Virus record (IMG/VR): IMGVR_UViG_3300035698_002219
Span: 1 to 25,040 of that record
Direction: 5' to 3' (one strand)
DNA length: 25,040 bases
From: a virus
The notes under the pieces were generated by a model that worked only from the letters and a program-made list of their open reading frames with translations, searched no databases and was not told the origin of the DNA. This document shows positions 12,810 to 19,299 of this stretch, piece by piece. How positions within the stretch are numbered: the stretch's first letter is position 1; the number at the start of each line of letters is the position of its first letter. The translations under genes were made by a program, and so were the position numbers.

Positions 12810-13718
12810 TTAATACGGATGCCAAACACCATCATTTGACGTTCCGTATATATACGATGATCCTAACTGTCTTGCTACTATCCATTCATCTGCTCTTGCT
12901 TCACGGGGCGAACCCTGTGTAGAATCAGAAAATACAGCTTTGGGTAATGTAACACTTTCAAATTTCTGTAACAATTTCTCTGCTTTAGTAGCACTATTCG
13001 TTAACGAGAAACATATCTCCGAAGCTATCTTACCAGCTAATGCATCTCTAAACTGTGATGTATATGACGATGGTGTATCGAGACTATATGTGTATATTAT
13101 TTTCAAATCATCTACGTTAGATAAGATACGTAATTCCTCTACTTTTATCCTAGCTAGTCTATTAGAGAACATATTGACTTCAAGCAAATCTGTAGGACGA
13201 TAGAATATATAGCTCATCCCATCTTCTGTAAAATTAAGCACTTCTGATAATATCCAATATACCGATGTTAAGTCAGTAGCAAACGTCCCTGCTGTATGTG
13301 CTGTAAGACAAGTATAATTAAGCCCTGAACTATACACCTGATCGCCTTTAGCGTAGCCTGTAGCAGTCACCCAAGTCAACTTGACTTCCCAATCAAGTGC
13401 CGCTAACTCTACAGAAAACGTAACTGACGTATTCGCTATAAGACAGTTATAAACTACATCGTTATAAAAGACAGTATCACCTACTGCATAAGACGTAGCC
13501 GTTTCCCATAAATCAACGTCAGGATGCGTCATATCAATAAGCTCTGCACGTTTCTGCGCAAATGTCCAGGGATGTTCCATAAGCATAGAATCACGACAAT
13601 CATCATAGACATCTGTAACAAGTCGTTGCTCTTCAACATCATCGGCTACAGTAGATAATCTTCTAGAACCGCATAGAGATAATGTTTTATTGTAAATTGT
13701 TAATTTCGTTACTGCCAT
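12810..13718 (-). CDS. Tail adaptor / tail tubular protein A-like, with two CBM-like repeats
   Basis: A 302-residue protein beginning MAVTKLTIYNKTLSLCGSRRL, with CRDSMLMEHPWTFAQKRAEL at 41-60, both typical of gp11-like adaptors that join portal and nozzle. Inserted after residue 70 are two tandem repeats (71-111 and 116-156) of the form W-x2-A-x2-YA-x-GD-x-V ... Y-x-C-x2-A-x-T-x2-TF ... L-x4-W, resembling carbohydrate-binding modules of the CBM5/12 (chitin-binding-like) type. The conserved adaptor fold resumes with DGMSYIFYRPTDLLEVN and IIYTYSLDT. I chose this ATG over one ten codons upstream because AGGAG lies eight bases before it. The gene starts 32 bases inside the end of the Wzy-like gene. 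Adaptor identity is firm; sugar binding is inferred. Confidence 0.82.
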   Translation of the reverse strand: MAVTKLTIYNKTLSLCGSRRLSTVADDVEEQRLVTDVYDDCRDSMLMEHPWTFAQKRAELIDMTHPDVDLWETATSYAVGDTVFYNDVVYNCLIANTSVTFSVELAALDWEVKLTWVTATGYAKGDQVYSSGLNYTCLTAHTAGTFATDLTSVYWILSEVLNFTEDGMSYIFYRPTDLLEVNMFSNRLARIKVEELRILSNVDDLKIIYTYSLDTPSSYTSQFRDALAGKIASEICFSLTNSATKAEKLLQKFESVTLPKAVFSDSTQGSPREARADEWIVARQLGSSYIYGTSNDGVWHPY

Positions 13719-14862
13719 GTTCCACACTCCTGTTATGCAAAAGACCAACTAGAACTGCTGTGAATAGACAAAATGGACCCATCTGCCAAACAAACATACC
13801 TCCAGCACTTACAGCCACACATGTAAAACTGCTCAGTAAAGCAGTACGATACTCATTCTTAAGGAAATTCATCTTATAGATATACCCTATTGCCATCAGT
13901 AACATAATCAATCCTATAATCCCACAATTGTATGTCCACTCAAGATACTCGTTATGTGCCTCGTAAACTTTATTCCTGTGTATAATATGAAAGGTATAAT
14001 AGAAGCTTCCTAGCCCCCTGCCCGTTAAAGGGTACTTGCCAAACTCTTTGCCATCTTCCATATCTCTATCTGAGATAGGTGCGTTAATATCCTCAATTAC
14101 CTGTACCCATGCGTCAAACCTACCAGAACTTGTAACGTAGTCGGGTTTATAGTGCTTCAGGGCTACCACACCGCTACTTATCACTATAAGGCATACAATC
14201 ACACTAACTAATTGTTTTCGTCCCTTACAAGCGAAGTAGAACGCTAAACTCACTATCATCGCTCCGATACCGACTTGGCTCTGTATTACCAGTACAGCGA
14301 CTATTATTGTGAGTGCCATAGCCTTTTTCTTGAGATAAAACGCTAAAGGTACTATCATCGCTATAAATGGCCCAACAAATGCCGGATGTCCTAATGTACC
14401 CGAATAGTTCCATTGTTCGTGAAACATACCGTTTGATTTAAAAAACTGGTCAAGGTTTAAGCCTTGAAATAGAGTGAACCCTGCCATGATAGTCCCTACC
14501 CATACCATAACAGTTAAAATTGTTTTAACCTTGAAATCTTTACCTAGGCTGGATATCGCTACAATACCAAGTAAATACGCTAGAATATAGCAGAAAGGTT
14601 TCCAACTCCAGAACTGCATTAACTGCATCCCGAATAAATCTACTCCACTTGAAGGTGATAGCATTATGTTCAGCCATACGAACCCAACAAGTATCAATGC
14701 CCATTTGTTGCTGAACTGTTTTATTTCGCCCTTATATAGTGATAACAGCCCCAATGCTAACATAGTCGCAAACGCTAAAGCACTCTTAAGCTCACGGATA
14801 TCTTGGCTTTTTATGCTTACGAAAGGTACTATAATTAGCATCAAGGCTATTATCTTTTCCAT
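13687..14862 (-). CDS. O-antigen ligase/polymerase-like membrane protein (Wzy_C/WaaL type)
   Basis: A 391-residue protein with about ten transmembrane segments. A long extracytoplasmic loop carries the family hallmarks: GRFDAW (247-252), PLTGRGLGSF (278-287) and AHNEYLEW (302-309), followed by a Cys-Gly-Ile-Ile-Gly membrane segment. GTLGHPAFVGPF (155-166) is also typical. Known members polymerise O-antigen repeats or ligate glycan to lipid A core or protein, using undecaprenyl-linked donors at the periplasmic face. AAGGAG lies just before the ATG, and the 3' end overlaps the tail adaptor gene by 32 bases. It is fully embedded in the virion operon, not in a separate moron cassette with its own promoter. 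Ligase and polymerase cannot be told apart by eye. A role in changing the host surface is inference. Confidence 0.85.
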   Translation of the reverse strand: MEKIIALMLIIVPFVSIKSQDIRELKSALAFATMLALGLLSLYKGEIKQFSNKWALILVGFVWLNIMLSPSSGVDLFGMQLMQFWSWKPFCYILAYLLGIVAISSLGKDFKVKTILTVMVWVGTIMAGFTLFQGLNLDQFFKSNGMFHEQWNYSGTLGHPAFVGPFIAMIVPLAFYLKKKAMALTIIVAVLVIQSQVGIGAMIVSLAFYFACKGRKQLVSVIVCLIVISSGVVALKHYKPDYVTSSGRFDAWVQVIEDINAPISDRDMEDGKEFGKYPLTGRGLGSFYYTFHIIHRNKVYEAHNEYLEWTYNCGIIGLIMLLMAIGYIYKMNFLKNEYRTALLSSFTCVAVSAGGMFVWQMGPFCLFTAVLVGLLHNRSVEHGSNEINNLQ

Positions 14863-14870
14863 GTTACTCC

Positions 14871-15422
14871 TTATCCAGCATTAGACCAAGCTCCAGAGCC
14901 TATACCTGGCTTGATTGATTCAACATACCAATCTCCACCAAATGCTCTGAGTGTTATTACCGGATAACTGTCTGCATACGATCCTGTGATACTTTCACCA
15001 ACTGCCATGCTAGTTGACAAGAATATAATAGCATCGTCCTGTGGCTCTATATTCATGTCAGGTGGTGTTGCTCCACCTTTAGCTACGCCAGTCATAAAGG
15101 TGAAATATACACCGTCATGCGTTGTCGCTGTGATAGATGGCAAAACAAACGACCTACTACCCGTAGGTACTCCCGTTGCAACAAAAGTCGTTCCTGACTC
15201 AGAAACTTCAATTGTATCTGGAGTAGCGGATTCTTCCGATATCCGTTCACCGATCTTTACTTCCTGTACTGCCGTATAAGGGTCACCTATATCAACATTC
15301 CCGGTGAAGTTCAAATCCATCGCTGAATCTGTCCTTACACCCTGATCCCTTACACCTACACTTGCAAAAGCCATGCTACACGCAAAGACCAATGCAAGAG
15401 TCATTACAAATAACTTTTTCAT
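14871..15422 (-). CDS. Secreted protein with Sec signal peptide, unknown function
   Basis: The 183-residue product starts with a textbook signal peptide: MKK, then LFVMTLALVFACSM, with a likely cleavage after AFA (residue 20). The mature part is Ser/Thr/Gly-rich and beta-type, ending with YPVITLRAFGGDWYVESIKP and GIGSGAWSNAG. I chose this ATG because GGAGG lies just upstream. An upstream in-frame ATG would lie inside the preceding gene and bury the signal peptide. It follows the decoration-like genes and precedes the Wzy-like gene by eight bases. A signal peptide is unexpected in a virion operon. The protein is probably exported to the periplasm or surface, perhaps acting with its membrane neighbour. 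The C-terminal sequence also resembles small beta domains in phage structural proteins, so a virion role is not excluded. Confidence 0.8.
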   Translation of the reverse strand: MKKLFVMTLALVFACSMAFASVGVRDQGVRTDSAMDLNFTGNVDIGDPYTAVQEVKIGERISEESATPDTIEVSESGTTFVATGVPTGSRSFVLPSITATTHDGVYFTFMTGVAKGGATPPDMNIEPQDDAIIFLSTSMAVGESITGSYADSYPVITLRAFGGDWYVESIKPGIGSGAWSNAG

Positions 15423-15432
15423 AACTTCCTCC

Positions 15433-15882
15433 TTAATCCTTAGTGTAAAACACAACCATGTTGATCGTACCAGTAGTACCTGACGTTGACGCACCAGTAG
15501 TGATAGTGATCTGATTGTCAGGCGTTGCGGCCGTAGTCATATCAACTTCATAACCTAAACCGTCTGGTTTGTTCAACCGTGTAGTTACCGACCCATCACC
15601 GTGATTGGTCGCAGAAATGTATCTATCCGGATCTTCTAAATCCCCTACGGCAAGCGTTGTTGATGACCCACCGATGTCATCCGTACTCAGGATAACTTCA
15701 AGGATTTTAGAACCTAATGGCAGTTCTGGCCCCATCTCAATCACCGTGCCAGAAACCGTTGAAGATACTTCATACTGGTCAAAAAAGCATTTTACTCGAC
15801 CATCTAAATACCCTTGCTCGAATTTGTTGCTTAGTCCACCAGCGTCTATTAGTGTCTTATTAACACCTTTTACAGTTGCCAT
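15433..15882 (-). CDS. Capsid decoration-like protein, paralogue 2
   Basis: A 149-residue beta-rich protein beginning MATVKGVNKTLIDAGGLSNK, with GYLDGRVKCFFDQYE, GPELPLGSKILEVILSTDD, DPDRYISATNHG, PDGLGYEVDMTT and a C-terminal FYTKD. It is about two thirds identical by eye to its upstream neighbour and clearly arose by tandem duplication. Small abundant proteins encoded directly after the major capsid protein are often head decoration proteins or head fibres, so that role is inferred. The sequence has no diagnostic motif. GAGGAGGG precedes the ATG. Compared with its twin it has a Cys (VKCFF) and a longer Ser/Thr/Gly-rich segment before the C-terminus (GASTSGTTGT). Confidence 0.7.
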   Translation of the reverse strand: MATVKGVNKTLIDAGGLSNKFEQGYLDGRVKCFFDQYEVSSTVSGTVIEMGPELPLGSKILEVILSTDDIGGSSTTLAVGDLEDPDRYISATNHGDGSVTTRLNKPDGLGYEVDMTTAATPDNQITITTGASTSGTTGTINMVVFYTKD

Positions 15883-15892
15883 AATACCCTCC

Positions 15893-16336
15893 TCAATCTT
15901 TGGTATACTTCACTTCGATATTCATCGTACCTGTAGCCGCCGCCGTAGCAGTAGTTACAAGTATCTGATTATCGGGAGTTGAAGCAGTTGTCATGTCGAT
16001 TTCATACCCCAGACCATCCGGGGCATTAAGTCGGGTAGTTAGAACTGTACCTCCACCATGATCTGTAGAGGTTATGTATCTATTCGGATCTTCCGCATCG
16101 CCAACTATCAGCGTTACGTTGTTGCCAAGATCGTCCGTTGATAAAACAACTTCCAATATCTTCGCACCTAAAGGAAGTTCCGGGCCTACCTCGACAACTG
16201 TCGCTAGTAACTCACCTGCGAACTCATACTGGTCAAAAAAGGTTTTTACCCTACCGTCAATATAACCCTGTGATATCTTGTTACTAAGTCCACCAGCGTC
16301 TATCTTTGTTTTGTTTACACCTTTAACTGTAGCCAT
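15893..16336 (-). CDS. Capsid decoration-like protein, paralogue 1
   Basis: A 147-residue protein starting MATVKGVNKTKIDAGGLSNK, with the same blocks as its downstream copy: GYIDGRVKTFFDQYE, GPELPLGAKILEVVLSTDD, DPNRYITSTDHG, PDGLGYEIDMTT, YTKD. AGGAGG is seven bases before the ATG. It lies 43 bases after the major capsid stop and ten bases before its paralogue. By position it could be a decoration or head-fibre protein displayed on the capsid. The best conserved parts are the N-terminal 35 residues and the PELPLG and PDGLGYE blocks. The least conserved part is the stretch after FFDQYE, possibly the exposed face. Confidence 0.7.
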   Translation of the reverse strand: MATVKGVNKTKIDAGGLSNKISQGYIDGRVKTFFDQYEFAGELLATVVEVGPELPLGAKILEVVLSTDDLGNNVTLIVGDAEDPNRYITSTDHGGGTVLTTRLNAPDGLGYEIDMTTASTPDNQILVTTATAAATGTMNIEVKYTKD

Positions 16337-16379: not shown

Positions 16380-17243
16380 CTATTCGGAGCAAGCTATCTG
16401 GACAACTCTTTCCTCTTCCAGCCTTACCGCACCTAGAACGATCTTCAAATAAACCTGCCATCCATAGTTCTTGTCAGGTCTAGGATCAATACGTCCTTCA
16501 GCTTCATTCTGTATAGCAAGCTGTATACCTTTCTTCTGATACGCAAGCACAAGCCTACTATCAGAAGTATCAGTCTCAAGCTGTTCACTATGAACAAACT
16601 TAAAACCTAACCATGAGTCCAACGTACCTTCGACCAACGCTTTAACCGTATTGAAATCAGAACTCGTTACCTCTGTCGTACCCAGCAAATCTTCTAGCTG
16701 TTCCGCAGATATAACGATATGACGGTCTTCTTTCTCAACTTCGTTTGCGTTCAGTTTCTTGCTAGCTTCAATAAGTTTAGCCTTAGTGAGTCCCGCTCCA
16801 CCTACAGCTATCTTTGAAGTGCTAGGTAGTGCCGTACTTGTTCCACCAGCTTTACCTGCAAATGCCGCCGCACTTGCCGCCTGGATGATGATAAGGTCGG
16901 TCTTTCGAGCCGCCGACGCCATCTTAGCTTGCATATACGTGGATTTAGGGTCAACCAACATAGCTAGAGCATCCTGTGGATCTTCAAGGGTATTCGATAC
17001 AAAGAACCTTGGAGTCACTCGCCTACGCTCGTGGTCTGGAGTTTGTACTGGGGTGTCAGCATAACGAGTCATGATTTCTTCCATTGAATCTGAACCATAC
17101 TGATCGTAATACTTTGCTTCGCCTGTCCAGTCAGTATCAACCATGACAGTCTGACGTAGCCTGTTGTCCATCTGCTGTGCCAGCATAGTTATCGTATTCT
17201 GGTACTGTTGGACAAATGCTACTTCTGGTGTTCCTCTAGCCAT
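16380..17243 (-). CDS. Major capsid protein
   Basis: A 287-residue HK97-fold-type capsid protein of a family common in podovirus-like phages. It begins MARGTPEVAFVQQYQNTITM, has VMVDTDWTGEAKYYDQYGS near residue 33, a central KLIEASKKLNANEVEKEDRH with VISAEQLEDLLGTTEVTSSDFN, then LGFKFVHSEQL, and ends VRLEEERVVQIACSE. The 'AEQLEDLLGTTEVTSSDFNT' block is a strong family hallmark. It is translated from AGGAGG seven bases before the ATG. It follows scaffold and portal in the expected order. A 93-base leader separates it from the preceding small gene, one of the larger gaps in the operon, which may serve higher expression. Confidence 0.9.
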   Translation of the reverse strand: MARGTPEVAFVQQYQNTITMLAQQMDNRLRQTVMVDTDWTGEAKYYDQYGSDSMEEIMTRYADTPVQTPDHERRRVTPRFFVSNTLEDPQDALAMLVDPKSTYMQAKMASAARKTDLIIIQAASAAAFAGKAGGTSTALPSTSKIAVGGAGLTKAKLIEASKKLNANEVEKEDRHIVISAEQLEDLLGTTEVTSSDFNTVKALVEGTLDSWLGFKFVHSEQLETDTSDSRLVLAYQKKGIQLAIQNEAEGRIDPRPDKNYGWQVYLKIVLGAVRLEEERVVQIACSE

Positions 17244-18769: not shown

Positions 18770-18988
18770 TTATCTCAAGCAATATGTCTTGTTTGTGTTC
18801 GTTGTTCTATATCTGACTCTCTTTATTGCCTTTTCCTTCTTTCGGCGTACTGTCTCTGGACTTAACCCATAAGCTCTACCTACCTCAGCCAATGTCATGC
18901 CATCGTGAAACATCATATAAAGAATCAAAACATCATCGAATGTCCAACAAACTGTCATCAGATCTTCCCAAAATAGACGCTCTTCCAT
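18770..18988 (-). CDS. Sigma-region-4-like helix-turn-helix protein
   Basis: A 72-residue protein. Residues 31-57, MTLAEVGRAYGLSPETVRRK then KEKAIKRVR, follow the sigma-70 region 4.2 pattern, where promoter -35 recognition resides, including the 'TL.EVG..+G.S...V...+..A...+R' register. An aromatic, acidic helix (about 7-28) precedes it, as region 4.1 would. Regions 2 and 3 are absent. The start is the ATG at 18988 because GGAG lies just upstream and overlaps the previous gene's stop; an ATG five codons earlier has no Shine-Dalgarno. It could be an anti-sigma or sigma-appropriating factor, a small transcription regulator, or an HTH of the small-terminase type used for DNA binding. Its place in the head module is unusual. 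Confidence 0.65.
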   Translation of the reverse strand: MEERLFWEDLMTVCWTFDDVLILYMMFHDGMTLAEVGRAYGLSPETVRRKKEKAIKRVRYRTTNTNKTYCLR

Positions 18989-18996
18989 CTTACTCC

Positions 18997-19299
18997 TTAC
19001 CATACGTGCTTGTTAAGTCTATGAAACTTCTTATAATCAATATTCTTATCAGAGAATAACTTTTTACGGTTCTCAAGCTTGCCTTCAGAATCCTTCTTTA
19101 ATATACCGCCTAGCTTCTGTAGCATCAACTCTTGTGAATCGCTCTTGAACTTGTTTTGATTCCAACACATCATACCTCGCATCATATCATCTTCTTCTTT
19201 ATGCGTGATGCTCTTGTTATCATAGATGTATCTTAGCACAAGCTGACTTAACTTGCGCAAGCTCATTAGATAGTTACTGCTTATTTTGATGAACGGCAT
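18997..19299 (-). CDS. Small basic protein, unknown
   Basis: A 100-residue Lys-rich protein beginning MPFIKISSNYLMSLRKLSQL, with KEEDDMMRGMMCWNQNKF in the middle and FSDKNIDYKKFHRLNKHVW at the end. AAGGAG lies seven bases before the ATG. It begins inside the end of the upstream gene, and its stop provides the Shine-Dalgarno region of the HTH gene. The N-terminus (MPFIKI..NYL...+KL..L) resembles that of its neighbour (MPIVKI..KNYI...KLIRL), hinting at a shared small fold or old duplication. No function can be assigned. Confidence 0.65.
   Translation of the reverse strand: MPFIKISSNYLMSLRKLSQLVLRYIYDNKSITHKEEDDMMRGMMCWNQNKFKSDSQELMLQKLGGILKKDSEGKLENRKKLFSDKNIDYKKFHRLNKHVW

Follow-up and report, generated by a model that had tools for sequence, protein, structure and literature searches.

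A putative Wzy_C-superfamily enzyme and a probable exported partner protein encoded among the virion genes of uncultured podophage-like viruses

Results

Position and integrity of the enzyme gene

The stretch of DNA under study (hereafter the window) is a virus record of 25,040 bases. It contains an ORF for a predicted polytopic membrane enzyme, with a ribosome-binding site rated good and a start separated from the preceding gene by 8 bp, on the same strand as genes for the capsid protein, two phrog_486 proteins, tail tubular proteins A and B and an internal virion protein (Table 1). The overlap with the tail adaptor gene that a preliminary description of the window had reported is real, and involves the start of tail tubular protein A. 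In most of the relatives that carry the enzyme gene in the same slot, it overlaps or nearly overlaps the adaptor gene, and homologues at 80 and 62% identity occupy the identical place. A dN/dS of ~0.08 was obtained for the window versus the relative L004 (an approximate value, with dS near saturation). The same-place relatives and this low ratio show that the ORF does not occur by chance; it is, on sequence comparison, an intact gene under purifying selection.

Table 1 Features at the locus, in window coordinates.
Feature	Position	Strand	Remarks
Tail tubular protein A (phrog_394), CBM_5_12 insert modules	12810..13718	(-)	Downstream neighbour of enzyme
Overlap of enzyme gene 3' end and tail adaptor start	13687..13718	(-)	32 bp; overlap likewise in most relatives
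Putative Wzy_C-superfamily polytopic membrane enzyme	13687..14862	(-)	391 aa, ATG start, about 10-12 TM
His303 codon (CAT)	13954..13956	(-)	AHNEY motif; invariant in 31/31 clusters; aligns with His313 of 7tpg
Arg248 codon (AGG)	14119..14121	(-)	RxxxW motif; first catalytic-type residue, invariant in 31/31 clusters
SP, predicted exported partner	14871..15422	(-)	183 aa; signal peptide MKKLFVMTLALVFACSMAFA/S and beta-rich mature part
phrog_486 virion structural protein, copy b	15433..15882	(-)	Upstream neighbour of the pair
phrog_486 virion structural protein, copy a	15893..16336	(-)
Major capsid protein (PF19821, phrog_3437)	16380..17243	(-)	Query for finding relatives

The proposal that the gene belongs to a late operon stands in part. 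Its one basis is the shared strand and the tight packing of the genes, and the arrangement is not universal, as the enzyme gene ends a replication operon in L100/L105. An argument from promoters and terminators was dropped, since the counts of promoter-like (28 versus 23.8 in shuffled sequences) and terminator-like sites (5 versus 4.5) are not above shuffle level.

Several further features of the virion block were observed. The phrog_486 genes are tandem paralogues in the window (15433-16336) and in L004, with a single copy in most relatives. CBM_5_12 inserts occur in tail tubular protein A of the window and several relatives; those of L020 (7013-7885) and L025 (4855-5757) carry an E1_FCCH-type insert instead, as if the insert site swaps domains. 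A 77-aa ORF in the head block (18770-19003 of the window) resembles, by eye, a helix-turn-helix or sigma region 4-type protein.

Family assignment and catalytic-type residues of the enzyme

Wzy_C is the sole Pfam match of the window enzyme, at 20.6 bits versus a cut-off of 31.7 (E 4e-4), or 37.7 bits with both matching stretches summed. The L002 relative clears the cut-off by itself (35.0 bits), as do other relatives, and a Pfam scan found Wzy_C (PF04932) in 17 of the 18 slot homologues. An 18-protein phage profile was compared to 177,635 PDB sequences and returned two matches only: 7tpg/7tpj, annotated as polysaccharide polymerase/ligase (E 9e-6; 7tpg is an O-antigen ligase), and 9rmk, annotated as oligosaccharyltransferase (E 1e-5). 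The Wzy_C-type class named in the preliminary description is hence confirmed by the Wzy_C matches, the Arg/His pair and the PDB matches to glycan enzymes. It had considered a match to a non-glycan membrane family as the contrary outcome; the profile search gave glycan enzymes only.

Across 31 enzyme clusters (non-redundant at 90% identity), R248, the GxG at 281-283, H303, N304 and G314 are all invariant. Some members were found with an HN-containing pattern, and the 18 found by other routes also keep the Arg/His pair. The RxxxW motif around R248 resembles R265-LKI-W269 of 7tpg (by eye; HMMER put this stretch in an insert). The R248-H303 spacing in the phage enzyme is 55, compared to 50 for R288/H338 of E. 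coli WaaL and 51 for R298/H349 of PglL (PMC3643930). Hydropathy and charge distribution predict that the loop bearing Arg and His lies outside the membrane, with residues ~233-313 forming the predicted large periplasmic loop. Important residues of E. coli WaaL also include R215, with R224 as the PglL counterpart (PMC3643930). No invariant Arg is present in the phage enzymes at the distance expected for this first arginine, and Lys179 is invariant in one phage subfamily (A) alone; an R215/R224-type residue is not a defining feature of the Pfam family or of the fold.

Pfam scans of all members left PglL_A (PF15864) and Wzy_C_2 (PF11846), the marks of PglL/PglS, unmatched, and PHROGs has no family for the enzyme. 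AlphaFold models built on six sequences were too poor for use (pLDDT 45, for the enzyme, and 36), and Foldseek yielded no meaningful match. The phage enzymes form two deep subfamilies in the tree, in which long branches blur their placement relative to cellular ones. Cellular relatives from Pseudomonadota scored far under the cut-offs of O-glycosylation-ligase or IctB models, and these matches do not fix the substrate of the enzyme. Judged from its sequence, the enzyme almost certainly belongs to the Wzy_C superfamily (O-antigen ligase/polymerase/protein-OTase; GT-C type). We do not file it as PglL, PglS or TfpO, because PglL_A and Wzy_C_2 are missing and its exported partner lacks a conserved C-terminal Ser/Thr.

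The likeness to WaaL (C. metallidurans 7tpg/7tpj; PF04932) lies in the profile match to the catalytic region, where the His, the GxG and the Arg-containing loop are kept, and in a multi-TM architecture with a large periplasmic loop. In contrast to WaaL, the phage gene lies among virion genes next to the gene of an exported partner, and the first WaaL arginine is not invariant.

A conserved exported protein is encoded beside the enzyme

The preliminary description missed a conserved partner, the predicted exported protein (SP) encoded just upstream of the enzyme. A simple signal-peptide rule was passed by all 25 SPs tested, compared to 0/66 capsid and 0/47 portal proteins. SP has a dN/dS of 0.26 between the window and L004 (approximate, with high dS). 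The C-terminal SP domain scored >50 bits at 19/28 enzyme-positive loci versus 0/9 enzyme-negative slots; a signal peptide accompanies 37 of its 38 occurrences, and the domain was not found in non-exported virion proteins. The C-terminal Ser/Thr that is the target of TfpO/TfpM is not conserved, with SP ends being variable. SP had no match among cultured phages.

According to profile searches, SP adjoins the enzyme gene in 26 of 30 assessable clusters, the 31st being cut by a contig end. A different signal-peptide ORF lies directly upstream of the enzyme in L066 and L121, and L122 and L123 are distant members. A comparison of pairwise distances gave a rho of 0.80 between enzyme and SP (n=15), and a partial rho of 0.77 given capsid, phrog_486 and tail tubular protein A (n=15; permutation p ~3e-4). 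The partial rho between the enzyme and the overlapping tail tubular protein A is ~0.10, some of the latter sequences being partial. No enzyme-SP co-divergence was seen within subfamily A by itself (n=5). The pair is kept in the head-tail slot and also occurs before the portal gene (L115/L116/L119); in L100/L105, SP is convergent to the enzyme gene and 49 bp off. A survey of the slot found no enzyme without an exported protein (Fisher p 0.0055, uncorrected for relatedness). In view of their adjacency, co-divergence, persistence across contexts and the distribution of the C-terminal SP domain, we regard enzyme and SP as one system, which very probably constitutes a two-gene module.

A functional link to the glycan-binding modules of the adjacent tail genes had also been suggested. 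This link appears weak, because a crude CBM-type tail motif is not significantly associated with the enzyme (p 0.16) and tail tubular protein A does not co-diverge with it.

SP-type proteins vary in their surroundings and architecture. The SP relative of L017 contains a region matching a tail fibre family (8e-17), and the signal-peptide protein in the slot of L033 (10029-10817) ends in K1-lyase_C, the K1 capsule lyase C-terminal domain (E 3e-18). Signal-peptide proteins of ~1,200 aa that match neither Pfam nor PHROGs families replace the pair in L044 (4414-8079) and L047 (10364-13951). In some enzyme-positive phages, a second exported SP-type paralogue is located between tail tubular proteins A and B, as in L106 (6773-7300) and L107 (8254-8823), and an SP-type paralogue is also found near tail tubular protein A of the enzyme-positive phages L025 and L065.

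Distribution among relatives and lifestyle

Relatives comprised 61 contigs obtained by the capsid-based search, with further ones from an enzyme-based search. The check proposed earlier, whether related phages have the gene at the same place, gave a location among virion genes in most relatives. Three main states of the head-tail slot were found: the enzyme with a signal-peptide protein, such a protein by itself or with an extended C-terminus, and neither. The enzyme gene is missing from several relatives, and inspection of four that are cultured or complete (HTVC010P, Baldr, ct3Et533 and Vibrio 1.182.O) found neither gene. Loss of the gene without other change, which the preliminary description had held to speak against its proposal, is not what was observed, since the partner is missing too from several enzyme-less relatives. 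Nine slots contain an SP-type protein with the enzyme missing, hence SP can act without the enzyme. In L049 (2254-3404) and L051 (10306-11459), the slot contains two ORFs for soluble proteins, 188 and 200 aa long.

An enzyme search of cultured phages and plasmids gave no match. Bacterial genomes gave one match, to a contig of 5.5 kb that was binned in a MAG and is not a flanked prophage. Tyrosine integrase (PF00589) was found in 0/34 records, including contigs of 37-49 kb, and resolvase (PF00239) in 0/16, both counts coming from records that may be incomplete. A virulent lifestyle of these phages is likely on this gene content. Expression in a lysogen, the other setting envisaged in the preliminary description, is not supported given the lack of an integrase in 34 records. 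Two late proteins of L100 (9041-12171, minus strand; 518 and 529 aa) carry signal peptides, unusual for genes of the virion block, and look repeat-rich or beta-helix-like by eye.

Discussion

We tentatively favour a model in which an inner-membrane glycosyl-transfer enzyme and SP form a module, with SP as the dedicated partner and a change to the envelope or lysate as the outcome. SP would be exported to the periplasm by the host Sec system during infection, where the enzyme would transfer a glycan linked to host undecaprenyl-pyrophosphate. SP would most simply be the acceptor, as with the pilin-specific O-oligosaccharyltransferases; the genes of dedicated O-OTases and of their targets are often neighbours (PMC12645811, PMC3643930). 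The product might then alter the envelope of the infected cell or the lysate such that the same receptor is not reused, blocking superinfection or re-adsorption. That SP is a glycan acceptor is a possibility we entertain with some reserve, and a block to re-adsorption as the purpose is put forward just as guardedly. It is rather unlikely that the genes amount to a dedicated phage protein-glycosylation system, in which a Wzy_C enzyme and an exported acceptor cognate to it would form a mobile pair, borne by phages without recognisable integrases and serving to coat the infected cell or lysate.

TfpO/PilO, TfpM and PglS likewise combine a Wzy_C-type enzyme gene with the gene of a small exported protein beside it (PMC12645811, PMC3643930). 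Unlike in these systems, the phage partner is not recognisably pilin-like and has no conserved C-terminal Ser/Thr, and the phage enzyme, the activity of which is putative, lacks PglL_A or Wzy_C_2. D3 Wzy-beta and VarioGold p25 are also phage-encoded, Wzy_C-type polytopic proteins, but they belong to temperate phages, where the enzyme gene lies opposite to the late genes and near the integrase. Both went undetected by the phage-family profile and form a separate clade in the tree. VarioGold p26, encoded upstream of p25, resembles SP in having a signal peptide; homology to SP was not supported, as it gave no match to the SP C-terminal domain.

O-antigen remodelling by the enzyme, the idea of the preliminary description, is possible as judged from its family. 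The enzyme would then be an alternative O-antigen or capsule polymerase/ligase, and a late change in LPS would stop adsorption of released virions or superinfecting phages, with SP as a separate exclusion protein or helper. Of the phage Wzy_C-type enzymes named here, D3 Wzy-beta alone has been tested, and it does change the O-antigen (PMC9658991 and its references); the family profile also matches the structure of an LPS ligase. There are exported phage proteins that block re-adsorption, e.g. T5 Llp (PMC9586334). By analogy only, Llp is comparable to SP as an exported phage protein of small size with a possible action on the envelope; it differs from SP in being a lipoprotein that blocks FhuA, in its early expression and in having no glycan enzyme partner. 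Remodelling alone, however, does not account for an enzyme that closely follows SP but none of its other neighbours; no further O-antigen modification genes were recognised beside the enzyme, and the D3 and VarioGold proteins lie outside the family detected by the profile. We therefore consider remodelling with a separate SP a serious candidate, if a somewhat doubtful one.

Decoration of the virion or lysate, in which a fibre-like SP would undergo export and modification by the enzyme and then bind virions or debris after lysis, would account for a slot among virion genes and for the fibre- or tailspike-type regions of some SP relatives (L017, L033). Export would nonetheless keep the protein away from virion assembly in the cytoplasm, and the enzyme-linked SP domain was not found in non-exported virion proteins, making this an improbable reading. 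A gene for lysogenic conversion (seroconversion), with expression from a prophage, would be of the same type as the phage Wzy genes of D3 and VarioGold, but neither integrase (34 records) nor resolvase (16 records) was found in the window or its relatives, and the sole bacterial-genome match has no prophage flanks, so that we give this origin very little credence. Least probable of all is a non-catalytic polytopic membrane protein, holin-like or a transporter, that merely resembles Wzy_C: the window protein alone does score under the Pfam cut-off, but the invariant residues are those of Wzy_C and the PDB matches are exclusively glycan enzymes.

Where a role has been established or proposed for a phage Wzy-type gene, it is lysogenic conversion by a temperate phage. 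What is new here is the presence of at least 31 distinct versions, mostly among virion genes, in uncultured podophage-like viruses with no recognisable integrase, each version normally lying beside an exported protein that evolves with the enzyme. If the module of enzyme and SP does transfer glycans, virion production would be tied to glycosylation of the surface or of proteins. How such phages avoid losing progeny to debris would then become testable, and the family may offer a source of new glycan-transfer enzymes with their own partner proteins.
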